Source: a virus. Taken from it: a stretch of DNA of 31,846 bases. Below are positions 939 to 31,793 of this stretch, piece by piece; position 1 is the stretch's first letter; each line of letters begins with the position of its first letter. The notes below the pieces were generated by a model. It searched no databases. It saw nothing but the letters and a program-made list of their open reading frames with translations, and had not been told where the DNA came from. The DNA is taken from positions 1 through 31,846 of the IMG/VR virus record IMGVR_UViG_3300030061_000069; one strand, given 5' to 3'. The translations under genes were made by a program, and so were the position numbers.

Positions 939-1307
939 CTATGTTAAAAGTTTTGGCTCTGGTCTGTAATGAGGAACAGACTTAGGATCATCACCCCTAT
1001 CAACTTTTGCTCTTGCATCCCATATTAAATCTTTGTGTTTCCTTAGCCATTTCATATATGTAGGCACAGTAAGATGAATAAAATCTCCATTAATTGGGCT
1101 TCTCACACCAAGATTAAAAGCATTTTGAGCATCTTCAAAATAAAAATTTTTGTAAGTCTTATACAAATCTTCTGCTAAACTTTGTGACATTATCATTATT
1201 GTATCTTCCTCAATATTGTTTTGACCTAACTCTATATATGTTTTACTTATTAAATCTACAGAACTCATAAGCAAATCTTCTTTTGTCATTTTTTTTATCT
1301 GTTTCAT
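939..1307 (-). CDS. Hypothetical protein paired with replication initiator
   Basis: This 122-residue protein is predicted to be mostly helical: an N-terminal half with repeated Leu/Ile/Met, then a conserved-looking block (FYFEDAQNAFNLGVR, then FIHLTVPTYMKWLRKH) and a short polar C-terminus. Its ATG overlaps the stop of the winged-helix initiator gene by 4 bases, so the two are probably co-translated. In phages, an initiator-like protein is often followed by a helicase loader or similar accessory factor. That position is the only evidence for such a role here, as I see no P-loop or other catalytic motif. Confidence 0.65.
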   Translation of the reverse strand: MKQIKKMTKEDLLMSSVDLISKTYIELGQNNIEEDTIMIMSQSLAEDLYKTYKNFYFEDAQNAFNLGVRSPINGDFIHLTVPTYMKWLRKHKDLIWDARAKVDRGDDPKSVPHYRPEPKLLT

Positions 1308-1951
1308 TTTTTAAATTGTTTTTTTAGTCTTTCTTTTACATTAACATTTTTTTGTAGGTGCATGTGTATTTTACTTATACCTGAATTATTGTTTTTAGTT
1401 TGTCTTTTCTCCCAAGTGCGAACACAGGCTTTCCATGCCTTCATTTTGTTCTTACCAATTTTCCAATCTTTACTTTCATAAAAATCATAAAAGGTTTCTG
1501 CATCTATATTATTTTTTCTTTCAATACAGTAATTAGCAATTTCATTAATAGTTGGTTTATTAAAACGCCCTTTATTATTACTATCTGTAAGATTAATATT
1601 AATACTTGTATTATTATCCTTAAACTTTTCTTTAATACCCTCCCTATCGTTTTCTTTAATACCCCCTTTAAGAATACTTAAATACCTCCTATCAATTTCT
1701 TTAGTACCCCCTTTGTAGGTGTAAATAGATGATACATAGCCATTTGAGATTAATTCGCTTATCCATTTAGAAATAGTAACAACACTCTTTCCATAAAGAT
1801 TAGAAAAGTATTTGTTAGTTGCAAAGCACTCACCATTCATATTTAGTAGTGCGGTAATTTCAGCATATAATAACTTAGCATTAGCAGTTAGGTTTTTATC
1901 ATACCTAACCTCTGCACTTATTATAGCATAGTAGTTTGGTTGCTGTTTCAT
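1304..1951 (-). CDS. Winged-helix replication initiator-like protein
   Basis: This 215-residue protein has an N-terminal winged helix-turn-helix (about residues 10-95). It contains the helix LTANAKLLYAEITALLN, a recognition-helix region KSVVTISKWISELISNGY and a wing with basic residues. A low-complexity Asn/Ser linker follows (about 105-128). The C-terminal block (about 129-182) reads FNKPTINEIANYC, then FYDFYESKDWKIGKNKMKAW and KACVRTWEKR. The final part matches the W-x-x-(A/C)-V-R-T-W-E motif seen in many phage DnaD/DnaT-like replication proteins, which recruit or load the helicase. It lies downstream of SSB and nuclease-like genes and is preceded by the conserved leader ACTAAAACTATA four bases before the ATG. 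Confidence 0.75.
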   Translation of the reverse strand: MKQQPNYYAIISAEVRYDKNLTANAKLLYAEITALLNMNGECFATNKYFSNLYGKSVVTISKWISELISNGYVSSIYTYKGGTKEIDRRYLSILKGGIKENDREGIKEKFKDNNTSININLTDSNNKGRFNKPTINEIANYCIERKNNIDAETFYDFYESKDWKIGKNKMKAWKACVRTWEKRQTKNNNSGISKIHMHLQKNVNVKERLKKQFKK

Positions 1952-1955
1952 TGTT

Positions 1956-1967
1956 TATAGTTTTAGT
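1956..1967 (-). promoter_or_regulatory. Conserved translation leader ACTAAAACTATA (copy 3)
   Basis: Minus strand ACTAAAACTATA ends four bases before ATG 1951 of the initiator-like gene and partly overlaps the end of the nuclease-like gene. Confidence 0.5.
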
Positions 1968-2472
1968 TGTGTTTTGGTATTTCTAATTCATAGCACTCTG
2001 TATAGGTTGACATAACAATAGGCCACTTACTTACATCTTCGTGAGGCACCCAACAAAATCTTGCATATAAAGCGTTCAATGGCTGTATGAACAAATAGTA
2101 CGTAACCTTCTTGTTAGGGTTGTTGTGGGCTTTAAAATTAACCCTAAGGACATTCCCTGCAGTTTTTACTCCCTTAACGTCAATATAATACAATTCACCA
2201 ACACCTTGCATAATTAGATCAGCACTAACTACTGGTCGTTCTTCAAGCAATGGTGCTGCCTTGTATTTAACACCATTATTGTTTTCCATTAAGTGTCTTG
2301 CAATAAGTTCTGCAAATATTCCTAACTGTTGTATTGAGTGTTCTTGTTTACCCCTATATTTCTCTGTGTTTTTGTTGTAAATTTTAGCAGATAGCATACT
2401 TCTTACCTTAGCAAGTTCATCAGATAATTTGATGAAAGTGCTAGGATAAGTTGTTTTTTTCCATTTAATCAT
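1963..2472 (-). CDS. Putative PD-(D/E)XK nuclease
   Basis: This 169-residue protein shows the spaced acidic residues of the restriction-endonuclease-like fold: Glu55 in a helix (GIFAELIARHLM), Asp85 after a strand (VVSADLIMQG) and the D-x-K signature Asp98-Val-Lys100 (YYIDVKGVK). A basic strand follows (NVLRVNFKAH) and the C-terminus is aromatic. Such small phage nucleases often act as Holliday-junction resolvases or recombination exonucleases. The gene lies between SSB and the initiator, and its ATG overlaps the SSB stop (TAATG). The fold call rests on motif spacing alone; the substrate is unknown. Confidence 0.5.
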   Translation of the reverse strand: MIKWKKTTYPSTFIKLSDELAKVRSMLSAKIYNKNTEKYRGKQEHSIQQLGIFAELIARHLMENNNGVKYKAAPLLEERPVVSADLIMQGVGELYYIDVKGVKTAGNVLRVNFKAHNNPNKKVTYYLFIQPLNALYARFCWVPHEDVSKWPIVMSTYTECYELEIPKHN

Positions 2473-2744
2473 TAGAATGGTAAATCATCATCTACTTTTG
2501 CTGTTGATTTTTTAGCAGCAGGCTTAGAATCTTTTGGCGGCTCGTAATCATTTACATAAGAATAATGAGTTGCACCCTTTTCAGATGGCTCTCTCCTTTC
2601 TGCAATAACCATAGAAACCCAGCCATTCTTTGAGTTTGCTTGTAGTTCATCCATTTTAAAGTTAGCAACCATCATTGTACCATACTTCGTATTAATGTTT
2701 TTAATACTACTCGGTAAGTAAACTTTCTCTTTTTTGTCTGTCAT
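2472..2744 (-). CDS. ssb: Minimal single-stranded DNA-binding protein
   Basis: The 90-residue product ends in DDDLPF (residues 85-90), the acidic tip that bacterial and phage SSBs use to recruit partner proteins. It is preceded by a flexible Lys/Ala/Pro linker. The first 65 residues alternate beta-strand-like segments (YGTMMVANFKMDE, GWVSMVIAERRE, THYSYVNDYEPP) as expected for a small OB fold, though this is much shorter than the usual SSB of about 110-180 residues. It should coat single-stranded DNA during replication and recombination and recruit host or phage partners through the tip. The gene overlaps the DnaA-like gene by 38 bases and the nuclease gene by one. Confidence 0.65.
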   Translation of the reverse strand: MTDKKEKVYLPSSIKNINTKYGTMMVANFKMDELQANSKNGWVSMVIAERREPSEKGATHYSYVNDYEPPKDSKPAAKKSTAKVDDDLPF

Positions 2745-3147
2745 TTTTTTGTTTTTTAATTTTATATAATTTAGTTAATGATTCCTTAATTTTATTTAAT
2801 TGTGTTTCAAGTCCTAATATCTCCTCATCCACTTCAACCTCAATAATTCTATTTTCTATTCTTTTAAAAGTATCAGTATCGTGTTGATAGTTATTGTAAA
2901 AAAACTTAAACTTTCTTGTATGGTGAAGTATAGATGCATGATGTAAATTTGTAACTACTCCTATCTCGCTAAGAGTCAAACCAAACATCTCTCTTAGTAT
3001 ATATATATACATTCTTTTAGCAAATATAATATTTTTCTTTCTGCTTCCTAAAAACATTCTATCTTTATCTATGTCATATATCTTTGCCAGTTCTTCTGTA
3101 ATTACGTTGTGATAATAATCACTAAATTTTAATCTTCTTCTTTTCAT
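2707..3147 (-). CDS. DnaA domain IV-like DNA-binding protein
   Basis: Residues about 35-80 of this 146-residue protein resemble the C-terminal DNA-binding domain of the chromosomal initiator DnaA. There is a basic helix (SRKKNIIFAKRMYIYILR), a helix with G-L-T-L-S-E-I-G (like the DnaA GLSLPEIG segment), and the signature N-L-H-H-A-S-I-L-H-H-x-R-K at 67-79, equivalent to DHTTVLHACRK. The AAA+ ATPase domain of DnaA is absent. The C-terminal 60 residues form a charged, probably coiled-coil helix. A free domain IV could bind DnaA boxes in the phage or host origin, or compete with host DnaA. It sits directly upstream of SSB, overlapping it by 38 bases. Confidence 0.7.
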   Translation of the reverse strand: MKRRRLKFSDYYHNVITEELAKIYDIDKDRMFLGSRKKNIIFAKRMYIYILREMFGLTLSEIGVVTNLHHASILHHTRKFKFFYNNYQHDTDTFKRIENRIIEVEVDEEILGLETQLNKIKESLTKLYKIKKQKNDRQKRESLLTE

Positions 3148-3158
3148 TTTTTATAATT

Positions 3159-3401
3159 TTAATTTAAGTCGTACACTATTGTATCAACTATGTCTTGTGT
3201 TTTTAATCCAATAAAATCTGCCAACACTTTAGCGTGACTAAATCTAAGTGATGGTGGATTCTCTATAAACTTCCTGCTTGTTGCGTAATTAACCCCAAGT
3301 ATCTTGCAGAGTTTTAAATTAGATATGCCATATATTCTTAGCAAAGCCTCAAATTCGTTTCTTGATTCTCTAATCTGTACTAAGGTATATTTATTAGTCA
3401 T
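3159..3401 (-). CDS. Small helix-turn-helix protein
   Basis: This 80-residue protein has a probable helix-turn-helix of the Xre/lambda-repressor type. It contains a helix (FEALLRIYGI), a turn (SNLKLCKILGVNYATSRKFI), and later helices (FSHAKVLADFIGLKTQDIVD). The pattern LCKILGVNYATSRKFIE resembles a short recognition unit. It begins inside the end of the gene at 3394-3690 (8-base overlap) and precedes the DnaA-like gene. It could autoregulate the replication operon or act as an anti-repressor or Cro-like factor. The regulatory role is inference from fold alone. Confidence 0.5.
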   Translation of the reverse strand: MTNKYTLVQIRESRNEFEALLRIYGISNLKLCKILGVNYATSRKFIENPPSLRFSHAKVLADFIGLKTQDIVDTIVYDLN

Positions 3402-3920: not shown

Positions 3921-4104
3921 TTATAATAGTTATTATTTCTTCTGCTTCTAATTCTGTTAGATCGTTTATTCTTTTTAGAATGTCCTCTTTAGTTGTAGAG
4001 GTTAATGTTGTGTATTGAATTTTAGACTCAATGATAAGCCATTGGGTATTCGTAATACCACTAGGCTCACCATCAAGCAAATTATCTAACCAATCTTCAT
4101 TCAC
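3838..4104 (-). CDS. Hypothetical acidic helical protein
   Basis: An 88-residue acidic protein (MNEDWLDNLLDGEPSG..., ILKRINDLTELEAEEIITII). It starts with GTG at 4104, overlapping the stop of the upstream annealing-protein gene by one base (TAGTG), which suggests termination-reinitiation. An ATG at 4100 is out of frame. The C-terminal segment KKQWEKMFKDGVFGHRD is basic and aromatic. Family unknown; it may partner the upstream recombination protein. Confidence 0.5.
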   Translation of the reverse strand: MNEDWLDNLLDGEPSGITNTQWLIIESKIQYTTLTSTTKEDILKRINDLTELEAEEIITIINENKYETDPKKQWEKMFKDGVFGHRDL

Positions 4105-4610
4105 TAATCAACAATCTCATCTTGACCAAACACTCCTTGCTCATAGAATCCAGCAATCTTTAATACAACTCTTGACATTGCTCTCTTTTCTGCCATAGCA
4201 ACAGGAAACTTTTTACCACCTCCCATTAAATTAACATCAGAAGCCTCACCAAAACTCATAGCATTTCTAACATCATTACCTACTTTCATGGTTGCTGCTG
4301 CTCTTAATACGCAAATACATTTTTCTATATCCATATTAATTACTTCATAAGCAACTGTAATGTTATTTTTTGACACAATCTTATCTATACCAGTTCTTGT
4401 GATAATTACAAAGCCTCGCTTGTCTTTGTATATATCTTCTTCTGTTAAGCCATTCTCTTTGTAAAGCCTTCTTAAAGCCTCTTTTCTTGTTTCTACGATT
4501 GGTTCAGGTTGCTTTTTTAATTTTTCCTGCATTGTTTTTTTTGACATTTTGTTATTGTTTAATTGATTATTATTTATTTGCTGTTCATACATTTGTTTCA
4601 TTTTGCCCAT
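4104..4610 (-). CDS. Probable single-strand annealing (Rad52/ERF-like) protein
   Basis: The 168-residue product has an N-terminal Gln/Asn-rich stretch and then a domain (about residues 45-160) with strands GFVIITRTGIDKI and ITVAYEVINMD, a central CICVLRAAATMKVGND, and a C-terminal helix AMAEKRAMSRVVLKIAG. The A-E-K-R-A-x-x-R-x-x-L helix is common in phage Rad52/ERF-type annealing proteins and related DUFs. Such proteins pair single-stranded DNA during recombination-dependent replication, consistent with SSB and nuclease genes nearby. The ATG at 4547 (residue 22, MSKKTMQEKL) has a better A-rich leader and removes the Asn-rich prefix, so it may be the true start. Family assignment is tentative. 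Confidence 0.45.
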   Translation of the reverse strand: MGKMKQMYEQQINNNQLNNNKMSKKTMQEKLKKQPEPIVETRKEALRRLYKENGLTEEDIYKDKRGFVIITRTGIDKIVSKNNITVAYEVINMDIEKCICVLRAAATMKVGNDVRNAMSFGEASDVNLMGGGKKFPVAMAEKRAMSRVVLKIAGFYEQGVFGQDEIVD

Positions 4611-5120: not shown

Positions 5121-6212
5121 TTAGAAATAATGCACTAAACGAGCCACTTGGCCACTTGTTTTTTCGTGCAAAAATCCTTCAACCGCTTTAGGAACTCCTG
5201 TATATCCTTTTCTTGAGTGCCAACTATCAGTTCCTGATGGACTACGCATATACTCTACAGTAACTCCTATAAAGTCTTTTGCATCTCTCCATTTGTGTTT
5301 TACTTTATGGTGTAAGTGATGTAAGTACCAATATCTGTATTTGGTTTCACTCCACATCTCTGGCCTTTCTTGTGCCATCAACAAAGGTAAGTTATCCATC
5401 TTAGCACCATCTCCATGCTCTAATCCAATTAGATTCTTACCATACTTATAATACTTTCTGTGTGCAACTCCTATGTCAAAAGAAACTTCTCTATCGTTCC
5501 TAAACCAACTCTTTAATGCGTGTGCTAAATGAAACCCACTTTGGTAATCGTGATTACTCATACAATGTATTACATCTACAGGCGCTATCTCTCGCAACAT
5601 CTCCACACACTTAACATATAGTGCCAATGCAACCTCAAAATGTTCCCACCACTTACCATCAACATCCTGTCCAGTACCTGCTGTTGTTTGATTATATACA
5701 TTGTCAATATGCAAAACATCATTACCTATGCAAAATAAGACTCTCTCTACATCAAACCCCTCTGACTTATACATAAGCCCTTCCAAGCCCTCTAAAACAC
5801 GCATACAGGCAGTTTCAACGTCATACCCATCGCCAGTTTCAACTCCGTTAGAATATTTACCTATATGTATGTCTGCAGGATTTATTATTAATAAATGATT
5901 GTTATCTTTTTTTTCTCTTTTTACTGAAGGGTAATAAGGAGAGTGATTTTCAATGAAGTCACTAATCTTATCTAGCATATCATTTTCATTAGCAGTTATA
6001 TCTTCTTTGGTTACAATACTGAATCTGTATTCACCACTAGCGGATTGCCAATGCTTAACACTTACAACGTCATCTTTCTTTATTCCCCTCTCTGAAAGAT
6101 GTATGTCTAGTGCTGTGTTACCATTAATGTTTGTTGTGCTTTCTGCTCTGTTTTCATAAACCATCTCAACTTCTTCTTTGGACAGTCTAAGCCTTTTGCC
6201 ATACTTTTTCAT
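5121..6212 (-). CDS. Calcineurin-like metallophosphoesterase
   Basis: The 363-residue protein carries the ordered metal-binding motifs of the calcineurin-like phosphoesterase superfamily: D-I-H at 114-116 (standing for DxH), G-N-D at 163-165 (for GDxxD/GND), S-N-H-D at 219-222 (for GNHD), H-G-D at 266-268, and a His cluster at 298-302. The N-terminal 100 residues are a separate domain, starting with a basic KRLRLSKEEVEMVYE helix that could bind DNA. Family members include Mre11/SbcD-type nucleases, phosphodiesterases and protein phosphatases; the target here is unknown. It lies alone between the lysis genes and the replication operon, flanked by a terminator upstream (6271-6296) and a promoter downstream. 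Confidence 0.75.
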   Translation of the reverse strand: MKKYGKRLRLSKEEVEMVYENRAESTTNINGNTALDIHLSERGIKKDDVVSVKHWQSASGEYRFSIVTKEDITANENDMLDKISDFIENHSPYYPSVKREKKDNNHLLIINPADIHIGKYSNGVETGDGYDVETACMRVLEGLEGLMYKSEGFDVERVLFCIGNDVLHIDNVYNQTTAGTGQDVDGKWWEHFEVALALYVKCVEMLREIAPVDVIHCMSNHDYQSGFHLAHALKSWFRNDREVSFDIGVAHRKYYKYGKNLIGLEHGDGAKMDNLPLLMAQERPEMWSETKYRYWYLHHLHHKVKHKWRDAKDFIGVTVEYMRSPSGTDSWHSRKGYTGVPKAVEGFLHEKTSGQVARLVHYF

Positions 6213-31585: not shown

Positions 31586-31616
31586 CAAATATACAACACT
31601 TTTACACATTACCAAA
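31586..31616 (-). promoter_or_regulatory. Bacteroidota-type promoter of the early operon
   Basis: Minus strand TTTG (31616-31613), a 19-base spacer and TATATTTG (31593-31586) fit the Bacteroidota consensus. A second TTTG lies directly upstream (31620-31617). Transcription should start near 31579 and run leftward through the small-gene operon. Confidence 0.7.
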
Positions 31617-31733
31617 CAAAATGTTAAAAAAGATTGATAAATATGCTAATTTATATTCATTCTAAATAAATGAGTATCAACGCTTTATATATAGAAACAG
31701 GCGTGTGGGCGTGTGTGTGCGTATAGAGCAGAC

Positions 31734-31793
31734 CCAGCAGTTTCACCAGCAGTTTCAGGGCAGTTTCACCAGCAGTTTCGCTGAAGCAATTTC
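31734..31793. repeat. Phased GCAGTTTC repeats (iteron-like)
   Basis: Four perfect GCAGTTTC units begin at 31737, 31749, 31760 and 31772 (spacing 12, 11, 12), with a degenerate GCAATTTC at 31786. Three lie in CCAGCAGTTTC(A/G) 12-mers. The spacing of about one helical turn would place bound proteins on one face of DNA. The array lies in the non-coding right end (31617-31846), upstream of the early promoter, beside a GT-rich run (31701-31722). Confidence 0.7.

Follow-up and report, generated by a model that had tools for sequence, protein, structure and literature searches.

The object of this analysis is the IMG/VR virus record IMGVR_UViG_3300030061_000069, a stretch of 31,846 bases analysed as a whole (hereafter the window), and in particular its positions 1304-3147, which are part of a phage replication and recombination operon. 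One product of this operon, a protein of 146 amino acids, is a free DnaA domain IV (hereafter DnaA-IV). The minus strand holds nearly all long open reading frames (ORFs) of the window (7579 residues versus 371 on the other strand, for frames of at least 150 amino acids), and along it the order within 1304-3147 is dnaA-IV, ssb-like, nuclease-like and rep. These coordinates and this order are as given by an earlier interpretation of the letters alone (the sequence-only reading), whose observations were confirmed in part and whose interpretation was supported in part. The four genes are:

2707..3147, minus strand: free DnaA domain IV (residues ~11-105) with a long C-terminal helix (88-145), 146 amino acids; assigned by PF08299, an AlphaFold2 (AF2) model and the structures 1j1v and 3pvp.
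2472..2744, minus strand: 90-amino-acid protein resembling single-stranded DNA-binding proteins (SSB-like), with a DDDLPF tip; assigned by conservation of the tip and overlap with the DnaA-IV gene.
1963..2472, minus strand: nuclease-like protein with a PD-(D/E)xK-like pattern recognized by eye (SADLIMQG...YYIDVKG); conserved columns, found in 53 of 81 loci.
1304..1951, minus strand: Rep, an HTH_36 winged-helix initiator-like protein; assigned by PF13730 (E=3.5e-13) and PHROG replication-initiation families.

The 146-residue protein matches PF08299 (Bac_DnaA_C) with E=1.3e-10 and 41.5 bits (43.5 in another search), above the curated cut-off of 31.5, and this is its sole Pfam match at E up to 1. 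The AAA+ ATPase domain III was not detected in Pfam and hence the protein is not a full DnaA initiator: it is, as the sequence-only reading had it, a DnaA-type DNA-binding domain free of the ATPase. An AF2 model with 27 relatives as input (predicted local distance difference test, pLDDT, 85; predicted template modelling score, pTM, 0.70) retrieves 3pvp (E 2.3e-4) and 1j1v (E 1.7e-3) in Foldseek, the first eleven PDB matches all being DnaA. With VIA-align, residues 11-105 superimpose on 3pvp and 1j1v with Z of 12.7 and 12.5 respectively (root-mean-square deviation 2.0-2.1 over 93-95 residues), the top non-DnaA chain reaching Z 5.9; structure prediction thus agrees with the proposed domain. A genome-contig scan with A1 found one relative, in a Streptococcus record (30%).

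Relative to bacterial DnaA, the phage protein keeps the fold of domain IV (PF08299; 1j1v, 3pvp) over ~95 residues and, in the alignment, the position of the minor-groove arginine. It differs in lacking domains I-III, in reading HHASI for DHTTV in the recognition helix, and in the 58-residue C-terminal helix (88-145), which extends beyond domain IV. DHTTV stands in the printed DnaA chains of E. coli, M. tuberculosis and Aquifex (twice); the alignment sets H69 against E. coli D433 and A71 against T435, and the DHTTV-type box-reading signature is therefore absent from the window protein. R36 meets E. coli R399 and does not vary in any of the 27 relatives, in contrast to the altered signature of the helix; here we take R399 to be the minor-groove arginine, and assume the numbering and contact roles of D433 and T435. 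The DHTTV signature is itself not universal, as true DnaAs vary: that of T. maritima (2z4r) reads SHPVV at the same place. The DnaA box of T. maritima is also said to differ.

One role that the sequence-only reading had entertained is that DnaA-IV binds host DnaA boxes (TTATCCACA), thereby blocking or hijacking host initiation. This is consistent with the domain IV fold, the conserved R36 and the fact that the T. maritima protein is a true DnaA likewise devoid of DHTTV. However, HHASI stands in place of the DHTTV of the E. coli, Mycobacterium and Aquifex proteins, and the window shows no enrichment of DnaA boxes (5 versus 11.1 expected, one mismatch allowed). On both these grounds the blocking of host boxes is very unlikely, and the operon does not look built for capturing or blocking them; box capture by the phage DnaA-IV was rejected on the lack of excess in the window. 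With its DNA grip altered, DnaA-IV is probably directed at sites of the virus and not at those of the host. Strict TTWTNCACA sites number 5 in the window, 7 in Leeuwenhoekiella phage vB_LaeS_Arctus_1 (Arctus_1), 6 each in 50 kb of Cellulophaga phages phi10:1 and phi19:3, and 2 in pelagiphage HTVC204P; these are raw counts given without an expected value, and in the five sequences the sites are scattered and never form a group of three.

The operon belongs to a family of marine bacterial viruses, and its surroundings in the window add the following genes:

3159..3401, minus strand: 80-amino-acid Cro/C1-like helix-turn-helix (HTH) protein (hth26) upstream of DnaA-IV; HTH_26 E=9e-4, below the curated cut-off.
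4104..4610, minus strand: conserved protein of 168 amino acids, present in 72 of 81 loci and resembling annealing proteins by eye only.
5121..6212, minus strand: DNA repair exonuclease (phrog_704, E=1.2e-69).
939..1307, minus strand: 122-amino-acid protein following rep, with no assigned function; in 10 of 81 loci at E 1e-3.

The exonuclease is presumably of the calcineurin-like type, and the 168-residue protein has no significant family match in Pfam, NCBIfam or PHROG. The order hth26-dnaAIV-ssb-(nuc)-rep is kept across 81 loci, fragments included, with hth26 in 80 of them (counting the window's own piece). A scan with the SSB-like protein gave 310 related stretches, of which 80 loci were kept and 72 new ones examined: DnaA-IV is present in 71 of these 72, the remaining locus beginning at ssb. 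The overlap between dnaA-IV and the ssb-like gene is 38 nucleotides in all 79 loci out of 79, and thus ties DnaA-IV to a protein with an SSB-type tip.

The sequence-only reading had called this overlapping protein an SSB. Only two features support the name, the first being an acidic C-terminal tip ending in PF, a mark of SSBs: the window protein ends in DDDLPF, all 27 relatives have DLPF or DMPF as their last four residues, and DLPF is the end in 11 of 11 members of a wider set. The second is the place of the gene. The fold was confirmed neither by the libraries nor by the PDB nor by a poor AF2 model: the window protein matches no Pfam, NCBIfam or PHROG family and has no convincing PDB match, and tblastn returned no relative at E up to 0.1 among 50,697 phage records. 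Across the family, Pfam gives only RRM_2, which matches 12 of 27 members at an E no better than 0.034, and PHROG only weak, unnamed families. In a distant relative (G021) the gene overlapping dnaA-IV instead encodes a DUF3127 protein (PF11325, E=2.6e-22) with a DLPF end; in G001 a DUF3127 gene with a DLPF tip directly precedes the DnaA-IV-like gene, and a tip-bearing DUF3127 protein is also found in G009, G016 and G019. One study reports DUF3127 within the SSB of phage AAS23 (PMC8004638). A comparison by hhalign of the SSB-like and DUF3127 profiles, both shallow, aligned 7 tip columns with a probability of 4.5%. As the two families are joined at the tip alone, the slot beside dnaA-IV may be filled by unrelated proteins that share a tip.

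For the neighbouring nuclease-like protein the earlier label fared similarly: the PD-(D/E)xK-like pattern can be seen by eye, and no convincing match was found in Pfam, NCBIfam, PHROG or the PDB. Profile A7 joins the window-type proteins with distant ones through a doubtful alignment, and its PDB search was without a significant match.

The designation of the last protein as winged-helix and initiator-like is upheld by HTH_36 and by PHROG, where it matches phrog_270 (1.6e-20) and phrog_186 (1.5e-14). The lambda O and DnaD-like initiators (phrog_186, 270, 678) share with the window Rep a winged-helix N-terminus and in-gene repeats beside AT-rich DNA; this likeness is at the level of hidden Markov models only, and helicase loading by Rep is putative. 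In lambda the origin repeats lie inside the O gene beside AT-rich DNA. The comparable feature of the window is:

1626..1709, minus strand: direct repeats inside rep (two of GGGTATTAAAGAAAA and one of GGTACTAAAGAAA) with AT-rich DNA after them, a candidate origin of the lambda O kind.

The 15-nucleotide repeat GGGTATTAAAGAAAA is reached by only 1 of 200 synonymous shuffles of the window rep, and in eight of nine other type A rep genes tested the repeats are reached by at most 11 of 200. By analogy, the type A genes hold what looks like a lambda-O-type origin. Type C repeats are also reached seldom (5-10 of 200), but with a different AT-rich repeat. Relatives show at least four types of Rep winged helix, which are swapped between close relatives and go with different in-gene repeats.

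We propose, as the most likely role, that DnaA-IV is a phage-specific DNA-binding accessory of replication acting at a putative site, a reading whose prospects we consider evenly balanced. DnaA-IV would work without DnaA's ATPase, would bind double-stranded DNA at a phage-specific site, probably as a dimer or oligomer made by the long C-terminal helix, and would serve as an accessory of the phage initiator Rep. Rep probably uses as its origin the block of repeats within its own gene, adjacent to AT-rich DNA, in the manner of lambda O, and the overlapping 90-residue protein would bind single-stranded DNA at the opened origin; at the least, its acidic tip may recruit the host partners bound by the tip of host SSB. 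DnaA-IV may mark the phage origin, as the sequence-only reading had suggested. The protein shows the DNA-binding end of DnaA put to use on its own in a phage, with its reading residues altered, and, if its target is found, would offer a test of how domain IV specificity evolves.

Several observations weigh against this proposal. The target site of DnaA-IV is putative, and the SSB-like fold is unproven, the AF2 model of the 90-residue protein reaching pLDDT 55 and pTM 0.29. The in-gene repeats are uneven across rep genes: the type A gene of L005 is not exceptional (29 of 200 shuffles); type B is mixed, with three of six genes reached by at most 4 and three by at least 84 of 200; type D is weak in two of three (4, 158 and 171 of 200); and the type E repeat is weak (58 of 200). 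Further, three records of one clade (G008, G010, G044) hold exo, the 168-residue protein, hth26, ssb and rep, together with the tandem arrays considered next, and have no DnaA-IV. Hence, DnaA-IV is not essential to the system.

The sequence-only reading had also pointed to repeats at 31734-31793 as a possible target. These are real and lie near the contig end, with a promoter-like site downstream:

31737..31779, minus strand: four GAAACTGC iterons (consensus TGAAACTGCY) with spacing 12, 11 and 12; also in relatives.
31586..31615, minus strand: Bacteroidetes-type promoter-like site (TTG, 19 nucleotides, TATATTTG) downstream of the array.

The array has a single orientation, lies outside any gene of 70 codons and is the only same-strand 8-mer cluster of the window (an 8-mer occurring three or more times in 100 nucleotides, low-complexity words left out). 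In the relatives, 27 distinct arrays from 48 loci with 131 units yield TGAAACTGCY; since the arrays were chosen by three exact cores, the constancy of the core is partly by construction and only the flanking T and Y are free. The spacing in these 27 is mainly 9, 11, 12 or 13 and never 10, and no inverted copy of the unit occurs within 300 nucleotides. Arrays of relatives come after the end of a gene, which in G008 encodes VRR-NUC (PF08774), and mostly follow an AT-rich tract. Some stand in frame inside ORFs: G016 and G021 have such arrays, and in L267 (near 890, minus strand) and L266:1369-1405 they appear as ETA repeats.

The array might be read by DnaA-IV, along perhaps with scattered copies of the motif, and would then stand in for DnaA boxes at the phage origin, as a substitute made by the phage. 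Scanning IMG/VR for three units, and thus for the array alone, gave 114 stretches with 80 loci listed; of the 50 loci tested, 34 have DnaA-IV. Among these are relatives at 24-43% identity that keep [HN]HA[ST] in the helix; the DNA-binding part of Rep is swapped or replaced while the array is unchanged; and an asymmetric head-to-tail unit of 9-10 base pairs suits a DnaA-IV monomer. Of the 16 records not among the carriers, 13 were sorted (G046, G047 and G050 being left out). G008, G010 and G044 carry arrays and the operon without DnaA-IV, and the array hence does not need it. G001 and G009 keep the array with a weak PF08299 match of 13.9 bits, below the cut-off, and a very different helix, DRDRSS. 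Five (G002, G014, G015, G018, G049) lack that part of the operon, and the other three (G005, G040, G042), in which no window gene was matched and the spacing is 12 or 15, are probably coding repeats. The association may also reflect shared descent only. The link between DnaA-IV and the repeats thus stands as a co-occurrence, weakened by these five exceptions and by a gene that tracks arrays better (see below); we regard this role as unlikely. DnaA-IV as sole reader, which we favoured first, was weakened by the same records, and it is probably not the array's only reader. Rep was rejected as a likely reader, its several winged-helix types contrasting with the constant array core; it is also disfavoured by G019, G021 and G016, which align to Rep residues 129-187 only. 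A sister clade (L276, L287, L288) is without DnaA-IV but retains hth26, ssb and rep, together with one or two arrays.

The promoter-like site, for which we assume the Bacteroidetes-type consensus, raises a further alternative: that DnaA-IV regulates transcription of phage operons instead of replication. Such a promoter is found within 400 nucleotides downstream of 58 of 100 arrays, which are mutually related, versus 77 of 1299 control windows and, where these are AT-rich, 31 of 231. DnaA proper doubles as a transcription factor, and the DnaA-IV gene adjoins that of the Cro-like HTH. Against this, the conserved partners of DnaA-IV are the SSB-like and Rep genes, and reading of the array by DnaA-IV is doubtful; a purely transcriptional role therefore appears improbable. 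Between array and promoter lies a near-palindrome, TTTAGAATGAATATAAA (TTTAGAATGATTCTAAA in relatives), at 31650-31666 on the minus strand of the window, which occurs within three mismatches after 34 of 100 arrays and which we take to be Fur/PerR-box-like.

The motif also occurs outside the array:

5809, 9130, 9870, 10149, 15107, 17112 and 19393, minus strand: scattered GAAACTGC (mostly TGAAACTGCY).

With the array this makes 11 sense copies in the window (4 array, 7 scattered) against 0 antisense, where 0.63 and 0.27 are expected. The same one-strand rule holds in six of seven long relatives, with 4 (G020), 9 (G025), 10 (G027), 11 (G028), 7 (G031) and 6 (G032) scattered copies and none in antisense; G030 has three of each. 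Shorter or more distant array records do show antisense copies (G001 2, G002 1, G005 1, G014 1, G040 4). The sense/antisense counts are 2/0 in HTVC204P and 4/1 in the first 50 kb of phi19:3, and no copy occurs in Arctus_1, the first 50 kb of phi10:1 or the first 22 kb of P2559Y. Of the window's 8 E-T-A tripeptides, 7 are encoded by GAA-ACT-GC, where 2.3 would be expected; at these seven sites C or T comes next in all (background 0.39) and T before in six (0.40). Across eight genomes, 57 scattered sites divide into 43 in the E-T-A frame, 7 in another frame and 7 outside genes, counting genes of 70 codons or more. Many copies are at different orthologous places between genomes, one in the exonuclease gene being common to all eight. 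This pattern suggests selection at the level of DNA. With nearly every gene in the same direction, the orientation is not assignable to transcription, replication or packaging.

A candidate reader is encoded upstream of the array in relatives, an HTH protein of 65-71 amino acids with a basic arm, DRKDxRGGGYxxRKF (hereafter arm-HTH), which weakly resembles resolvase/invertase-type HTHs. Examples are:

L276:8478-8690.
L271, minus strand.
L266:8841-9038; and others.

The alternative that we rate just short of an even prospect is that array and scattered motif are read by arm-HTH or by a factor of the host, for instance a recombinase that reads Chi, while DnaA-IV acts elsewhere; this is compatible with the accessory role proposed above. 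Of the 104 distinct arrays with 1.3 kb of upstream sequence, 90 have an arm-HTH gene upstream at a distance of up to 1.6 kb; of the 90 distinct arm-HTH genes with 1.1 kb of downstream sequence, 89 are followed by an array. Of the 14 arrays without it, seven are second arrays of their locus and two are inside genes; L125, L179 and L188 have no VRR-NUC gene, and L161 and L201 remain. The gene is present in the DnaA-IV-less clade and in G001, and the scattered copies are one-stranded, the other strand having none in the window or in six of the seven long relatives. These counts are biased, however, since the array or the operon served to retrieve many of the loci, and linkage is then expected from descent. 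DnaA-IV is present in 74 of the 77 arm-HTH loci that extend 4.5 kb upstream, the three exceptions being G008, G010 and G044. The arm-HTH recognition helix also varies (SQPLMYQL versus SQPIINML), and the motif-free Arctus_1, phi10:1 and P2559Y (the last two searched in part) argue against a Chi motif of general use in the hosts. In the window itself no arm-HTH gene was found; as relatives have ~0.7 kb more there, it probably falls in the missing sequence between the contig ends. Arm-HTH is a possible reader of the array.

More tentatively, these phages may possess an address system of their own, akin to a private DnaA box or Chi: the TGAAACTGCY array beside an AT-rich tract and a promoter, together with oriented single copies in genes, would be read by a phage HTH protein (arm-HTH, DnaA-IV or both) to steer initiation, recombination or packaging, with coding sequence repeatedly changing to E-T-A (GAA-ACT-GCY) to make the motif. 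The oriented motif with its arrays is a separate, directly testable signal and may be more interesting than DnaA-IV itself. A literature search found no functional study on this marine phage group, and no paper on the function of free phage DnaA-IV.

Free phage DnaA-IV proteins are already known by annotation; the one described here is a variant, set apart by its altered reading residues, its long helix and a partner that overlaps it and bears the tip. Those of phi19:3 and phi10:1 (131 and 153 amino acids) are annotated as 'DnaA protein' and that of HTVC204P as 'DNA replication initiation'; all three, of 131-178 amino acids, likewise lie among early genes, and phi19:3 likewise has a DUF3127 protein, with an LPF tip. 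They share 16-24% identity with the window protein and differ from its HHASI, phi19:3 and HTVC204P keeping DHxxV and phi10:1 having NFSTV; no GAAACTGC array occurs in the parts searched. Arctus_1 encodes a free DnaA-IV of 153 amino acids (WYD67201; PF08299, 64.3 bits) with 26% identity over 62% of the query, which keeps DHATV in a phage without any GAAACTGC. A 'DNA replication protein' gene directly precedes that of DnaA-IV in Arctus_1 (L111:7120-8423), and in phi19:3 a 'DNA replication protein', COG1484-like per annotation, lies ~2 kb from it (L112:3989-7391); these pairs may be split DnaA-like initiators. A DnaA-IV-like domain is also reused outside DnaA in some TnpA-REP-like HuH proteins: according to PMC6006769, these bear Bac_DnaA_C-like domains at the C-terminus and their flanking repeats do not resemble DnaA boxes. 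There the domain is fused to a HuH nuclease, whereas here it is a stand-alone phage protein.

The large terminase of the window has its closest counterparts in phages of Croceibacter and Chryseobacterium, followed by others, Cellulophaga among them, and the exonuclease is nearest to that of Synechococcus phage S-CBS2, then Flavobacterium phages; the host is probably a member of the Flavobacteriia. The contig ends (1 and 31846) seem to fall in one gene block that relatives keep whole.

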